From Marivita lacus (GTDB lineage Bacteria > Pseudomonadota > Alphaproteobacteria > Rhodobacterales > Rhodobacteraceae), in NCBI RefSeq assembly GCF_014637725.1, contig NZ_BMFC01000002.1:310907-374906 (forward strand): 64,000 nt of DNA, written 5' to 3'. Shown in pieces: positions 19,635-30,602 of the stretch; the stretch's first letter is position 1; each line of letters starts with the position of its first letter. Made by a program: the position numbers and the translations under genes. Under the pieces are notes generated by a model. It worked only from the letters and a program-made list of their open reading frames with translations. It was not told the DNA's origin and ran no database searches.

Positions 19635-19704
19635 ATGCACATCCCTTGAAGTGATGCGGCTTGTCTAAGGTTTGTCCGGTGGTTGTGCAATCGCTCCGGC
19701 GTAC

Positions 19705-19723
19705 CTGCCTAATTATTAGGCAG
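19705..19723. promoter_or_regulatory. Perfect palindrome in the dusB-ntr promoter region
   Basis: CTGCCTAAT-T-ATTAGGCAG: nine-base perfect inverted repeat, 92 bases before dusB, in an AT-rich spacer shared with divergent ispF. Size and symmetry fit a dimeric regulator; the position fits control of the ntr operon. It differs from the enterobacterial NtrC site consensus, so no protein is assigned. Confidence 0.55.
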
Positions 19724-19814
19724 ATGCGTTTTGTTGGTCTGTTTTTCAGGCTATTTTCATTGAACGGCGCGCGGGCACAGCGTAGCTCAAACTCATCAAT
19801 CAAGGATTGCAACG

Positions 19815-25693: not shown

Positions 25694-27109
25694 ATGAGCG
25701 ATATTCTGATAGTGGACGATGAGCGCGACATCCGCGAACTGATCGGTGACATCCTGAAGGACGAAGGCTACACGACCCGGCTCGCGGGCAACTCGTCCGA
25801 GGCGATGGCCGAGATCAATGCAGAGGAGCCGTCACTGCTGATCCTCGATATCTGGCTGAAAGACAGCAAGATGGACGGGATCGACATTCTCAAGACCGTC
25901 AAGCGCGACAATCCGGATGTGCCGGTGGTCATCATCTCGGGGCATGGCAACATCGAGATCGCGGTCGCCGCGATCAAGCAGGGTGCCTATGACTTCATCG
26001 AAAAACCGTTCAATATCGACCAGTTGCTGGTCGTCATTCGACGCGCGATGGAAACGAGCCGCTTGCGGCGCGAGAACCACAAGCTCAAGCGGCGCGACAG
26101 CGACGTGGCGCAGATGGTGGGTGAATGCGCGGCCTATCGCGGGCTGGTGTCGAACCTCGACAAGGTGACGAAATCCAACGGCCGGGTGCTTTTGTCCGGG
26201 CCTGCGGGCAGCGGCAAGGAAGTGGCGGCGCGGTACATCCATGCGCATTCCAACCGCGCCAGCGCGCCGTTCATCACGGTGAACTGTGCCGGCGTGGCGC
26301 CAGAGACGATGGAGGAGGTGCTGTTCGGCCGCGAAACACCGGAACGCGGGGTCGAGCCGGGCTTGCTCGAGCAGGCGCATGGCGGGGTGGTCTATTTCGA
26401 CGAGGTGGCGGACATGCCGCTGGGCACCCAGTCCAAGATCCTGCGGGTGCTGGTGGACCAGCAGTTCCAGCGCGTCGGCGGGGCGGACAAGGTGCGGGTG
26501 GACCTGCGGGTGATCTCCAGCACCAACCGCGACCTCAAGACCGAGATCGCGGGGGGGACGTTCCGCGAGGAGCTGTATCACCGGCTCAACGTGGTGCCGA
26601 TCTCGGTGCCCAGCCTCGAGGACCGGCGCGAGGACATCCCGATGCTGGCGGGGCATTTCATCGACCTGTTCCACCAGTCGCAGGGCCTGCCCAAACGCGG
26701 GCTGAGCCCCGATGCGGTGGCGCTGTTGCAGACGATGGTGTGGCCGGGCAACGTGCGGCAGCTCAAGAACCTGATCGAACGGGTGCTGATCCTGGGCGAC
26801 GGCACGGGCGACATTGCGGCGCGAGAACTGCCGCAGGACACGACGCCCGCCGAGGATGAAGAGGGCCGGGTGGTGCTGTCGGGCACGCTGGCCACGATGC
26901 CGCTGCGCGAGGCGCGCGAGGCGTTCGAACGCGAATACCTGCTGACCCAGATCAACCGCTTTGGCGGCAATATCAGCCGGACGGCAAGTTTCGTCGGCAT
27001 GGAGCGCAGCGCGCTGCACCGCAAGCTGAAATCGCTGGGGGTGGTGACAAGCTCCAAGGCGGGGGGGCGGGTCGCCTATCTCGAGGACGAGGTGGAAGAG
27101 GCAACCTGA
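25694..27109 (+). CDS. ntrX: Response regulator NtrX lacking a GAFTGA loop
   Basis: Response regulator of the NtrYX pair, 471 residues. The receiver has Asp52 (LLILDIWLKDSKMDG). The AAA+ domain has Walker A GPAGSGKE and Walker B GGVVYFDEVADMPL. Where sigma-54 activators have FGHEKGAFTGA, this protein has LFGRETPERGVEPGLLEQAHGG, so direct sigma-54 activation is unlikely. The C-terminal Fis-type helix-turn-helix is GGNISRTASFVGMERSALHRKLKSL. The ATG is 24 bases past ntrY with GGACAAGGGTGAGG upstream. In relatives trkA follows directly; here an AT-rich insert intervenes. Confidence 0.95.
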   Translation: MSDILIVDDERDIRELIGDILKDEGYTTRLAGNSSEAMAEINAEEPSLLILDIWLKDSKMDGIDILKTVKRDNPDVPVVIISGHGNIEIAVAAIKQGAYDFIEKPFNIDQLLVVIRRAMETSRLRRENHKLKRRDSDVAQMVGECAAYRGLVSNLDKVTKSNGRVLLSGPAGSGKEVAARYIHAHSNRASAPFITVNCAGVAPETMEEVLFGRETPERGVEPGLLEQAHGGVVYFDEVADMPLGTQSKILRVLVDQQFQRVGGADKVRVDLRVISSTNRDLKTEIAGGTFREELYHRLNVVPISVPSLEDRREDIPMLAGHFIDLFHQSQGLPKRGLSPDAVALLQTMVWPGNVRQLKNLIERVLILGDGTGDIAARELPQDTTPAEDEEGRVVLSGTLATMPLREAREAFEREYLLTQINRFGGNISRTASFVGMERSALHRKLKSLGVVTSSKAGGRVAYLEDEVEEAT

Positions 27110-27113
27110 GCGG

Positions 27114-27173
27114 ATAGGTCCGTTCTGGCCCTTTTGTTTCGCGCGCGAAACATTGGGTCCGGAGTGGACCTAT
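27114..27173. repeat. Nested inverted repeats just after ntrX
   Basis: Outer arms ATAGGTCC (27114-27121) and GGACCTAT (27166-27173) enclose a 16-base perfect palindrome GTTTCGCGCGCGAAAC (27136-27151). The structure begins four bases after the ntrX stop, at the edge of the AT-rich insert. It could end the ntr transcript, act as an operator, or mark the insertion junction. There is no T tract for a standard terminator. Confidence 0.55.
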
Positions 27174-27355
27174 TAAGGGTTTGGTAACGTTGGGGAAGGT
27201 CTGGATTGGAAAATCGTTTCTTTTGGAGGCGCACCTGAGCCGAAGTCCGTTCACGTAGCATTGTTGTCCCATCTTAACGCTTTTTTCACGCGCTTATTTC
27301 AAAGATATGGACAGTAGTAGCTTCGTAGGTACTATGGAAAAAAAGGAGGTGCCAA

Positions 27356-27817
27356 ATGGCAGAGAGCATTCAGACGGATGAACCAATATTCACAATCGGT
27401 TATGAAAAGTCCACAATCGATGACTTTGTGAATAGACTTTCGGACGCGGAAATTGATGTTTTAGTAGACGTCCGTGAGCTTCCATTGTCTCGCAAAAAGG
27501 GTTTTTCAAAAAACGGTCTCAACGCTGCTGTCCGAGAGGCAGGTATCGACTACGTTCATGTCAAGGCGCTTGGTGACCCCAAGCTTGGCAGGGAAGCAGC
27601 GCGAGCTGGGGACCATGATCTATTTGTCGAGATATTCACTCGTCACATAGATGGTGAGGAAGCGCAATCGGCGCTAGCCGACCTTGCCGCTACTGTGAAG
27701 GGAAAGCGAATTTGTCTTACATGTTTTGAACGCCATCACGACGGCTGCCATCGCAAGATAGTTGCTGAGCGACTATCAAAAATGGTTGGGGCACGTATTG
27801 AGCATATCGCCGTGTGA
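27356..27817 (+). CDS. DUF488-domain protein
   Basis: A 153-residue protein of the DUF488 family, whose biochemical role is not established. Family features: the N-terminal FTIGYEKSTIDDFV, the basic loop DVRELPLSRKKGFSK (38-52), and the C-terminal cysteine cluster CLTCFERHHDGCHR with Cys120, Cys123, Cys131 and His132, which could bind metal or act as nucleophiles. A very strong ribosome binding site (AAAGGAGG) precedes the ATG. Codon use is AT-rich compared with the flanking ntrX and trkA, suggesting horizontal acquisition. The next gene starts about seven bases after its stop, so both are probably one functional unit. Confidence 0.88.
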   Translation: MAESIQTDEPIFTIGYEKSTIDDFVNRLSDAEIDVLVDVRELPLSRKKGFSKNGLNAAVREAGIDYVHVKALGDPKLGREAARAGDHDLFVEIFTRHIDGEEAQSALADLAATVKGKRICLTCFERHHDGCHRKIVAERLSKMVGARIEHIAV

Positions 27818-27824
27818 GCTGACC

Positions 27825-28598
27825 TTGAGTGATTGGCAACCTCCTGTCGAAGTATGCGTAATCGTAAAAGCTGCGCCTGAGACAGGTCAAACGCACGGTG
27901 AGACGGTGTGCGTGGCGGGGATCGATGTTTACGGTCAATGGCATCGGCTATATCCAATGCCTTTCAAGCTACTTAGCAGTAAACAAAAATTCAATCGCTG
28001 GGATATAATTCGTACAAGATGGCGAAGCGCTGCTCCAAAAGATTTGCGTCCTGAAAGCAAGCGAGTCGATCATGGATCACTTGAGAAGGTCCGCGAGGTT
28101 AAAGTATCAGAGCGCCATGAATTTGCGAGGCGCGCTATCGTGGAGAGCTTGTCAGAGGAAAAAGCAAAGGGTCGCTCTTTTGCTCTAATTCGACCAGAAA
28201 ACCCCGAATTTATCATTCGACGTTTGACTGAACCTGAAATGAAAAAGAACCAAAGGCGTCGTGATTTCCTTCTTAATCAAACAGATATGTTCTCGGGGGA
28301 TAGTACGGTGCTTACGCCCGACGTAGCTCCGTATTCATTTCACTACCGGTTCGTGCATGAAGGTAAGACTCTAACCCACACGTGTATTGATTGGGAAACG
28401 GAGCGAACGTTTTTTAAATGGCGTAGCCAATATGGCGAAGAAGCGACTTTGCGTCACATGGGCGAAAAGTGGGGACACGACATGCCATCGAGGGGAATAG
28501 CTTTCGCTATGGGCACGCATAGAGTAACGAAGTTCAATAAGTGGTTGTTATCTGGTGTAATCAGAGTAGATCATTCGACACAGCCAAGCCTATTGTGA
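27825..28598 (+). CDS. Unknown partner of the DUF488 protein
   Basis: Hypothetical protein of about 257 residues that I cannot place in a named family. The N-terminus has a strand-rich module: PPVEVCVIVKAAPETGQTHG, then ETVCVAGIDVYGQWHRLYPMPF, then FNRWDIIRTRW. The centre is charged, and the C-terminal half contains YSFHYRFVHEG, HTCIDWETERTFF and IAFAMGTHRVTKFNKWLLSGV. No membrane segment or signal peptide. No ATG fits: the frame is open from TTG 27762, inside the DUF488 gene, and I choose TTG 27825, just after its stop, because the conserved-looking module begins there. Same AT-rich composition as its neighbour. Confidence 0.75.
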   Translation: MSDWQPPVEVCVIVKAAPETGQTHGETVCVAGIDVYGQWHRLYPMPFKLLSSKQKFNRWDIIRTRWRSAAPKDLRPESKRVDHGSLEKVREVKVSERHEFARRAIVESLSEEKAKGRSFALIRPENPEFIIRRLTEPEMKKNQRRRDFLLNQTDMFSGDSTVLTPDVAPYSFHYRFVHEGKTLTHTCIDWETERTFFKWRSQYGEEATLRHMGEKWGHDMPSRGIAFAMGTHRVTKFNKWLLSGVIRVDHSTQPSLL

Positions 28599-28952
28599 GG
28601 TCGAATAATCAATTAGCTTGTAAGTATTCGCGCGCCCACACGGCGGCGATTTGGTGGGACCAGTGCTCCGCTTTGATCTTCTTTGGATGTGACCGAGATA
28701 AATCGAGGGATTCGACAGTTGGAACGCCACCGCGCGCGTCGGAGATGCGCGGCGGGTGAGCGTTGCGCGGATTCTTGGGAGTTCGGTGCGTGCGAGCACG
28801 CACCCTACGGGATGAATGCACCTATGATGAAAGTCGAGTTTGACGTTAACCATTTTGGCGAAAACTCCACGTTGCCGCCCAATTCTCAACCTTTTTGAGC
28901 GCGAACAATGGTTTGTCTCGATTTCGAGATTTTGAAAATTAGGAGATTTTTC
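28599..28952. other. Spacer of 354 bases without a supported gene
   Basis: This stretch between the DUF488 partner gene and the glycine-rich small gene holds no open frame with a plausible start on either strand that I would call. It contains one strong palindrome (28785-28804), a GC-rich patch, and an AT-rich tail (28880-28950) that probably holds the promoter of the small gene. The patchy composition suggests old insertion or deletion events. Confidence 0.6.
28785..28804. repeat. REP-like palindrome
   Basis: GGTGCGTGC-GA-GCACGCACC, nine base pairs around a two-base centre, flanked by CCTACGG. Sequences of the type GTAGGGTGCGTGC...GCACGCACC are common dispersed intergenic repeats in proteobacterial genomes. 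Only one copy was seen in this window. Confidence 0.6.
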
Positions 28953-29057
28953 ATGGGTAAAGGACAAGGAAACGGTGGCGGTTGGCCCAGCACAACCGGG
29001 AATCCTTCTGGCGGTGGCCGCTCCAATGGCTCTTCCGGTGGTGGAAAGAGCAAATAA
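28953..29057 (+). CDS. Glycine-rich 34-residue protein
   Basis: Tiny protein beginning MGKGQGNGGGWPSTTGNPSG and continuing with Gly/Ser/Asn up to a basic GGGKSK end; nearly 40 percent glycine, one tryptophan, no hydrophobic core, so probably disordered. It is supported by AGGAG six bases before the ATG, an intact stop and a clean intrinsic terminator right after. I recall similar WPSTTGNPSGGGR microproteins scattered through proteobacterial genomes with no known role. Too short for usual gene callers. It may be an independent transcript or belong with the DUF488 pair upstream. Confidence 0.75.
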   Translation: MGKGQGNGGGWPSTTGNPSGGGRSNGSSGGGKSK

Positions 29058-29061
29058 CTTG

Positions 29062-29090
29062 AAGGCTCCCAAAAGGGGCCTTTTTTCTTT
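29062..29090 (+). terminator. Intrinsic terminator after the glycine-rich small gene
   Basis: Stem AAGGCTCC / GGGGCCTT with a short A-rich loop followed by TTTTTTCTTTT, four bases after the small gene's stop. It would separate the insert from trkA transcription. Confidence 0.85.
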
Positions 29091-29225
29091 TCTCTTTTGC
29101 GTAGTCAACGGAAAGGTAAGGGAGGCAAGCGCAGCGCCAACACCCTCCCCAATTGACCCCACCCCGGACCTCTGCCACACAGAAGCCTGCGTCACAGCCA
29201 AGGGGCCCGTCCGCGGGCGTGTGTC

Positions 29226-30602
29226 ATGAAAGTCATCATCTGCGGAGCGGGTCAGGTCGGCTGGCAGATTGCGCGTCACCTCGCGGGCGAACGCAATGAC
29301 GTCACGGTTGTCGACAACAATGCCGAACTGGTGCGCCGGGCGACGGATGCGCTGGACGTGCAGGGGATCGCGGGGTTCGCGTCCTACCCGGATGTGCTCG
29401 AACAGGCGGGGGCGCGGGATGCCGACATGATCATCGCGGCGACCCATTCGGACGAGGTCAACATGGTGACCTGCCAGGTGGCGCATTCGGTGTTCTCGAT
29501 CCCGCGCAAGATCGCGCGGCTGCGGGCGAAATCCTACCTGACGGCGATCTATTCCGATCTCTACCGGCGCGATCACATGCCCATCGACGTGGTGATCAGC
29601 CCCGAGATGGAGGTGGCCGAGGCGGCGTTGCAGCGGCTGAACGCCCCGGCGGCGTTCGACACGGAAAAGTTCCTCGGGGGGGATGCGTCGCTGATGGGGC
29701 TGACCATCGACGCCGATTGCCCGATCATCAACACGCCGCTCAAGCAGCTGACGGATCTCTTCTCGACGCTGCGGAGCATCGTGGTGGGCATCCGCCGCGA
29801 GGGCACGCTGTTTGCGCCGGAATCGAACGATCAGATCTTCGCGGGCGATTCGTGCTACGTGATGTCCCACAGCGAGGACGTGCGCCGGACGCTCGAGATC
29901 TTCGGCAAGACCCATCACAAGCAGGAGCGGGTGGTGATCATCGGTGGCGGCAATGTCGGGCTGATGGTGGCCAAGGAGCTTGAACAGCGCACCGACCGGG
30001 TGCGGGTCAAGGTGATCGAGCGCAACCGCAAGAACGCCGAACGCGCCGCCGAGGCGCTGGAGCGGACGATTGTTCTGAATGGCGACGGGCTGGACGTGGC
30101 GCTGCTGGCCGAGGCCAATATCGAGCGCGCGGATGCGGTGCTGTGCGTGACCGATGACGACAAGACCAACATGCTGGCCGCGGTGCGCGCCAAGTCCGAG
30201 GGCTGCCGCATGGCGATCGCGCTGATCAACGACCCCACGCTGGAGCCGCTGATGGAACCGCTGGGGATCGACGCCTATATCAACCCGCGCTCGGTCACGG
30301 TCAGTTCGATCCTGCGCCATTTCCGCCACGGCCGGGTGCGCGCGGTCTATTCCATCGGCGATGCCGAGGCCGAGGTGATCGAGGCGGAGGTGCTGTCGAC
30401 CTCACCCATGGCCGGGCAGAGGCTGCGCGACATCGATTTCCCGGAAGGTGTGATCCTGGGCGCGGTCCGCAAGGCGGGCAAGGTCAAGCGCCCGACCGGG
30501 GCGATGGTGATCGAGGAAGGCGACCAGGTGGTCATCTTCACGTTGGCCAAGGACGTGCCGGAGGTCGAACGCCTGCTCCAGGTGTCGATCGACTTCTTCT
30601 GA
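29226..30602 (+). CDS. trkA: Trk potassium uptake protein TrkA
   Basis: Peripheral cytoplasmic subunit that gates the TrkH potassium channel by binding NAD(H) and nucleotides. The 458-residue protein has two RCK units, each with a Rossmann motif: MKVIICGAGQVGWQIARHL at the N-terminus and VVIIGGGNVGLMVAKEL near residue 237. Each is followed by a TrkA-C module. Four bases separate it from trkH, so the two are an operon. GC-rich like the core genome, in contrast to the insert upstream. Confidence 0.96.
   Translation: MKVIICGAGQVGWQIARHLAGERNDVTVVDNNAELVRRATDALDVQGIAGFASYPDVLEQAGARDADMIIAATHSDEVNMVTCQVAHSVFSIPRKIARLRAKSYLTAIYSDLYRRDHMPIDVVISPEMEVAEAALQRLNAPAAFDTEKFLGGDASLMGLTIDADCPIINTPLKQLTDLFSTLRSIVVGIRREGTLFAPESNDQIFAGDSCYVMSHSEDVRRTLEIFGKTHHKQERVVIIGGGNVGLMVAKELEQRTDRVRVKVIERNRKNAERAAEALERTIVLNGDGLDVALLAEANIERADAVLCVTDDDKTNMLAAVRAKSEGCRMAIALINDPTLEPLMEPLGIDAYINPRSVTVSSILRHFRHGRVRAVYSIGDAEAEVIEAEVLSTSPMAGQRLRDIDFPEGVILGAVRKAGKVKRPTGAMVIEEGDQVVIFTLAKDVPEVERLLQVSIDFF

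Follow-up and report, generated by a model that had tools for sequence, protein, structure and literature searches.

The ntrX-trkA junction of Marivita lacus

We analyzed a stretch of 64,000 nucleotides from Marivita lacus, hereafter the window, in which the genes ntrX and trkA are separated by an insert carrying a gene for a DUF488 protein and, seven bases after it, a second gene, the product of which is hereafter called the partner. The features of this pair of genes and of the insert around it are the following (positions of the window):

27191..29143, no strand: insert, with bounds taken from the near-empty junction of sibling genome G014; composite and of the lowest GC content in the window
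27254..27355, plus strand: upstream region, probable promoter or leader of the pair, with a DNA sequence conserved in relatives that lie at unrelated sites
27356..27817, plus strand: DUF488 gene, 153 amino acids (Pfam PF04343; PADLOC PDC-M19A)
27825..28598, plus strand: partner gene, 257 amino acids, TTG start (PADLOC PDC-M19B; predicted oligonucleotide/oligosaccharide-binding, or OB, fold)
28278..28292, plus strand: internal clamp-type motif QTDMF, residues 152-156 of the partner, in a low-confidence loop
28581..28595, plus strand: C-terminal clamp-type motif QPSLL, residues 253-257, the last residues of the partner

A previous sequence-only reading had proposed that about 2.1 kb of AT-richer DNA, 27110..29225, was inserted between ntrX and trkA. 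The compositional anomaly is real: with a GC content of 0.501 this interval is the AT-richest in the window, in which 619 sliding segments of the same size have a mean of 0.630 (standard deviation 0.025) and only two, each overlapping the insert, fall below it. The GC content of third codon positions is 0.44 in the DUF488 and partner genes vs. 0.87 in ntrX and 0.885 in trkA. The coordinates that the same reading gave for the two genes, and for a 34-residue gene with a terminator-like hairpin (see below), also hold, but its insert was drawn too wide. In sibling genome G014 the gap between ntrX and trkA is 267 bp, and the match of this junction to the window ends around 27190 and restarts around 29143; positions 27110-27190 thus belong to the old junction and lie outside the insert. 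The G014 junction retains, in addition, a 26-bp piece matching 28785-28810, and the insert itself is composite. No integrase or transposase was recognized by eye among its open reading frames (ORFs), and no structured RNA of Rfam matched positions 26900-29400 at an expectation value (E) of up to 0.1.

The junction was then compared in 16 genomes of the same genus and in 14 family members from other genera. Both ntrX and trkA were present within the fetched stretch in 8 of the 16 congeneric genomes, at distances of 267, 912, 1289, 1731, 2450, 3333, 3504 and 4769 bp; in the other eight the contig ends or, as in G013, the 19.5 kb retrieved do not contain ntrX. Among the members of other genera the two genes lie 12-265 nt apart in eight, in line with the earlier expectation that they are usually close neighbours, and 693-940 bp apart in four, while no ntrX was found within 1.5 kb of trkA in two of the 14. 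The partner gene is absent from all 16 congeneric genomes and from 20 relatives of the same family, and neither it nor the DUF488 gene is present at any of 30 trkA loci (longer stretches were checked for 20 of these). The differing spacing and cargo, together with the absence of the pair from the trkA loci of relatives, indicate that the insert is accessory; it is acquired, foreign DNA, as previously proposed, and its genes are not core at this site.

Within the genus, the ntrX-trkA junction is a variable insertion site, the cargo of which differs between species. Pfam and PADLOC scans, which together covered 12 of the larger ORFs of sibling junctions, identified an AAA/OLD/AriA-like protein in G002 (of which only the trkA side of the junction was seen), Imm11 in G012, LuxR and an alpha/beta hydrolase in G005 and an FGE-sulfatase in G016. 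Five of ten junction ORFs have no Pfam family, and PADLOC returned one strong match among ten (G002) and a weak one (E 0.0034, G005). Given this mixture, we rejected the idea of a dedicated defence island at this site. Of note, 5' fragments of trkA lie about 1 kb and about 19 kb upstream of the intact gene in siblings G003 and G013 (positions 1709-1962 of locus L042 and 19667-19777 of locus L035), as though a duplicate had been left behind when cargo was inserted where trkA begins.

The DUF488 and partner genes form a mobile unit

Relatives of the partner were found at six genomic loci in one search, in 17 of 394 genomes of the family (some as fragments) and in 10 of 398 genomes of the phylum, both counts including M. 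lacus, the genome of which contains a single match each for the DUF488 protein and the partner. They also occur in 25 plasmid records, those opened belonging to Pseudomonadota, Actinomycetota, Cyanobacteriota and Thermoproteota, in seven phage records, all of Gordonia phages, and on viral contigs. A DUF488 gene is adjacent to 81 of the 83 distinct full-length partners, in the same order as in the window in 55 cases, convergent in 25 and downstream on the same strand in one. This count omits copies with identical cores and 13 partial rows (coverage of 0.85 or less), among which four partners have DUF488 nearby (L065, L079, L113, L169) and six do not (L078, L080, L081, L111, L112, L141), the end of the locus being reached in L111, L112 and L141. 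The association recurs in eight of eight further full-length loci (L177-L184), next to the broken partner of L185/L186 (L187 being the same place as L077) and in four of four loci of another set, including the Saccharolobus plasmid pBEU9E1, in which the gene immediately upstream of the partner encodes a ParB domain followed by DUF488 (1e-31 against the DUF488 profile); in L193, a partial partner sits among transposases without DUF488.

The linkage extends to the DNA level. Across eight distinct loci, the DNA of the 1.3-kb unit is 68.6-75.4% identical to that of the pair, and this similarity stops at its edges or close to them; the alignments to L060, L061 and L083 start at 27254-27255 and end at 28589-28591. 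Hence co-occurrence at other sites, which the sequence-only reading had left to be checked, is the rule: the DUF488 gene and its partner are a real two-gene unit, found on phages, plasmids and chromosomes, and a mobile module that has moved horizontally.

The partner, a predicted OB-fold protein with clamp-type motifs

The partner has nothing above cut-off in Pfam or NCBIfam (an NCBIfam hit below cut-off scores 12.4 vs. 100 bits) and matches PHROG 25907 (E 3.9e-25) and PADLOC PDC-M19B (E 2.2e-31). Its AlphaFold2 (AF2) model, with a predicted local distance difference test score (pLDDT) of 87.8, contains an OB fold, as indicated also by Foldseek/VIA matches. The best Foldseek matches covering most of the model are HIN-200, RPA and telomere proteins that bind DNA with tandem OB folds, but this likeness is one of fold, at low TM-scores, and no sequence relationship with these proteins was found. 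Some partner relatives match the dual OB-containing domain of Pfam, DuOB (PF22557), namely 10 of 60 with E values no higher than 0.1 and 4e-05 at best and, in a separate scan, two of nine proteins below the cut-off (18.6 and 18.7 vs. 27 bits), whereas the partner of the window does not match it at E up to 1. We thus predict the partner to be an OB-fold nucleic-acid-binding protein, which probably binds DNA.

Two short segments of the partner are conserved in a distinctive way. The internal motif, Q-x-x-hydrophobic-hydrophobic, is present in 58 of 60 aligned partners (59 of the 62 listed relatives plus the window protein, with L138, L139 and L170 left out), and within residues 147-164 the entropy falls below 1.4 only at Q152, 155 and 156. 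The C-terminal motif is found in 77 of 82 partners, but in only 9.6 on average, and never in more than 18, when the tails were shuffled 1000 times. As further controls, DUF488 tails have it in two of 82 cases and other open frames in 17 of 1630. The strict form QxxLF ends 45 of the 82 partners, at most five in the shuffles, and none of the 82 DUF488 tails or 1630 other frames. When the partners are grouped into 12 clusters at 50% identity, the internal motif appears in 11 and the C-terminal motif in all 12. The further loci L177-L184 are less perfect, the C-terminal motif being visible by eye in six of the eight (L183 and L184 are without it). Both motifs fall in the two blocks of lowest confidence in the model (mean pLDDT of 55 for residues 151-160 and 57 for the last block), and the segments, judged from these values, are probably exposed and disordered.

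These segments resemble bacterial beta-clamp-binding motifs, an identity that we propose because they match QxxLF/QxxLxL, the consensus of such motifs; QADMF, the internal motif of one partner relative, is identical to that of Escherichia coli Pol III alpha. The partner may therefore bind the beta clamp (DnaN) through both motifs. It would share their form with clamp-binding proteins such as Pol III alpha, DinB, MutS and others, and differ from these in that a single small protein, with an OB fold and often encoded on mobile elements, has both motifs. The archaeal sliding clamp is PCNA, and no clamp-type motif was seen in the two archaeal partners that were read.

The DUF488 protein

The DUF488 protein is a member of two Pfam families of unknown function, DUF488 (PF04343; E 4.9e-29, 101.8 bits vs. 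a curated cut-off of 22.2) and DUF488-N3a (PF22751; E 8.1e-10, 39.5 bits vs. a cut-off of 27), and matches PADLOC PDC-M19A with E 8.4e-35. Both proteins of the pair hence match PDC-M19, in adjacent genes seven bases apart. The names of this class reportedly come from a 2024 preprint by Payne and others. The AF2 model of the DUF488 protein has a pLDDT of 91.5. Sequence searches gave no convincing relative of solved structure, the rows for hemocyanin and glutaredoxin being weak and partial.

In an alignment of 62 DUF488 sequences (61 of the 65 listed stretches plus the window protein), the invariant residues include D38, R40, S45, R46, Y66 and R79 as well as C123, E125, C131, H132 and R133, which form a C-x-E-x5-C-H-R loop. 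The sequence-only reading had numbered correctly a cluster of Cys120, Cys123, Cys131 and His132, but Cys120 varies in the alignment and was discarded as a conserved residue. The metal or sulfur chemistry that it had suggested from this cluster is permitted by the conserved loop, and chemistry of the Cys/Arg type as in protein tyrosine phosphatases (PTPs) is an equally good reading of the same residues. N-terminal extensions were noticed by eye in some DUF488 proteins, resembling an XRE helix-turn-helix in L090 and an antitoxin-type domain in L079 and L184.

Other elements of the junction

Four additional features flank or follow the pair:

27110..27190, plus strand: palindromic element of 60 bp (arms 27114-27143 and 27144-27173) with conserved downstream bases, also present in sibling junctions
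28629..28811, no strand: repeat, GC content 0.64, shared by several sibling species at the same junction
28953..29057, plus strand: open reading frame, 34-residue glycine-rich microprotein gene
29061..29083, plus strand: terminator-like hairpin and T-run after the microgene

The arms of the palindrome are 77% complementary around the core TTTCGCGCGCGAAA. In sibling G010, in which an extra gene parts trkA from ntrX, it stays on the trkA side, and it may serve the trk operon as operator or leader. The repeat occurs at the ntrX-trkA junction of several siblings in versions of about 145-180 bp and up to three copies (L033-L036, L038, L040); the M. lacus genome holds a single full-length copy. A guess from its peptide, that it might be the remnant of a DUF3102 gene, was dropped, as its 70-residue frame has no Pfam family.

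The 34-residue gene is a real, strongly conserved orphan microgene of sporadic distribution: matches of 84-94% identity were found in only three of 294 other genomes of the family, at unrelated sites, and none on plasmids. The start codon is at the same place in L173 and L174, while the match in L175 begins at residue 3, with no clear start. The three matching sites have neither gene of the pair within 1.5 kb, and the microgene was rejected as a part of the system; of the compact accessory system previously imagined, then, the two larger genes travel together and the microgene is independent. A terminator scan found two terminator-like sites, which alone is no proof of termination because shuffled sequences yield a mean of 2.5.

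Genomic neighbours and possible functions of the pair

Acquisition, gene linkage, conserved motifs and invariant loop are the observations from which we infer a role for the pair. In the account that we favour, and consider rather probable as a whole, the insert would carry a module of two genes that has moved horizontally; its partner protein, a DNA-binding protein with an OB fold, would dock on the beta sliding clamp via its two short linear motifs and therefore sit at replication forks or on fresh DNA. There it would position the DUF488 protein, the two working together; the latter would be an alpha/beta enzyme that uses its invariant Cys-x-Glu-x5-Cys-His-Arg loop to act on a nucleic-acid or nucleotide substrate. 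The benefit would most likely arise in conflicts between mobile elements and their hosts, either as defence or as protection or replication of the carrier element itself, two functions that we regard as about equally likely.

The neighbours of related pairs bear upon this choice. We scanned 148 of 162 selected proteins from 38 of 41 picked loci; proteins were chosen by ORF length, so that some may be in the wrong frame. Among the 25 commonest families listed, the most frequent with a name are ParB-like proteins and DNA methyltransferases (N6/N4), with 9-10 matches each in 148 (three for Pfam ParB_N itself), whereas GmrSD parts, HEPN/Toprim, Mu-like and terminase genes account for one to three each. 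Nameable neighbours are thus genes of phage DNA metabolism more often than known defence genes.

This pattern is consistent with an accessory for replication, repair or DNA modification of phages and plasmids that serves its carrier and is now a chromosomal passenger, a reading to which we give a substantial but minor share of credence. It agrees with the OB fold and the clamp motifs, with a pair of 84% identity on a viral contig of 47.6 kb, where ORFs judged by eye suggest replication genes, a ParB-methyltransferase and also a cytosine methyltransferase, and with a Sulfitobacter plasmid on which a relative of the pair lies near RadC and beside SSB. Against it, the pair also stands alone between chromosomal genes, in M. 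lacus and L060. In Gordonia phage Eviarto the partner is gp43, directly after gp44, which is annotated as immunity repressor; DUF488 is gp42 and the integrase gp39.

The alternative of an anti-phage module, in which the partner would detect at the clamp that a phage is replicating, with DUF488 as the effector, appears just as tentative. Phage defence candidates (PDCs) are products of a guilt-by-embedding approach (PMC12988326), and PADLOC lists both genes among them as PDC-M19A/B. Sporadic distribution, carriage on viral contigs and plasmids, and the GmrSD parts and HEPN/Toprim protein in the neighbourhood of relatives point in the same direction, as does a gene with a motif that looks by eye like PD-(D/E)XK after the partner in two Sulfolobales plasmids (L189, 1930-4346; L088, 3989-5349). 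However, the Sulfolobales gene of pSOG2 has no Pfam nuclease match, the commonest named families among the neighbours, orphan-type methyltransferases apart, are no defence systems, the ntrX-trkA hotspot holds mixed cargo, and no experiment on the pair emerged from the literature searched. Defence, which the sequence-only reading had offered as one example of a role, is plausible. PDC-M19 is not named in that literature, where no test, clamp motif or OB-fold description of it was found; within the portions of text that the searches returned, mostly unrelated uses of the words, there is no description of the pair or its motifs.

A more elaborate possibility, which we consider rather unlikely, is replisome-tethered surveillance of DNA: a tandem-OB partner, similar to HIN or RPA, would read DNA while holding the clamp by its two motifs and hand a signal or substrate to DUF488, with a ParB-CTPase, which lies near the pair in some phages, as third, nucleotide-controlled element. 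In a study of archaeal ParB-CTPases, a fusion with DUF488 and a helix-turn-helix is reported to bind cytidine triphosphate (CTP); as in pBEU9E1, DUF488 is joined there to a ParB-type domain (PMC12704722), unlike the window protein, the 153 residues of which contain no ParB domain. If this reading is true, the pair would act in immunity or anti-immunity by monitoring replication itself.

The two remaining alternatives are improbable. A toxin-antitoxin pair would fit two adjacent, mobile and sporadic genes, but 25 of the 83 pairs are convergent, which is unusual for an antitoxin-toxin operon, and no toxin or antitoxin family scores above cut-off in Pfam or NCBIfam. Enzymes of metal or sulfur stress, though compatible with a metal bound by C123, E125, C131 and H132 and with copper-resistance neighbours in two plasmid loci, would leave the clamp motifs and OB fold of the partner unexplained, and such neighbours occur in only two of the ten plasmid and phage regions read.

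Significance

The pair is a real acquired module and a member of a candidate class that is already catalogued; its clamp-type motifs and predicted OB fold are the new content, and give PDC-M19 a mechanistic hypothesis. DUF488 is widespread, yet continues to be classed among the domains of unknown function. For part of this family, the nearly constant presence of a neighbour with two clamp-type motifs and a predicted OB fold would provide a tie to the replication fork, and the putative link to the clamp makes the role of DUF488 testable by simple binding and mutation. For the genus of M. lacus, the ntrX-trkA junction is a place to look for cargo.
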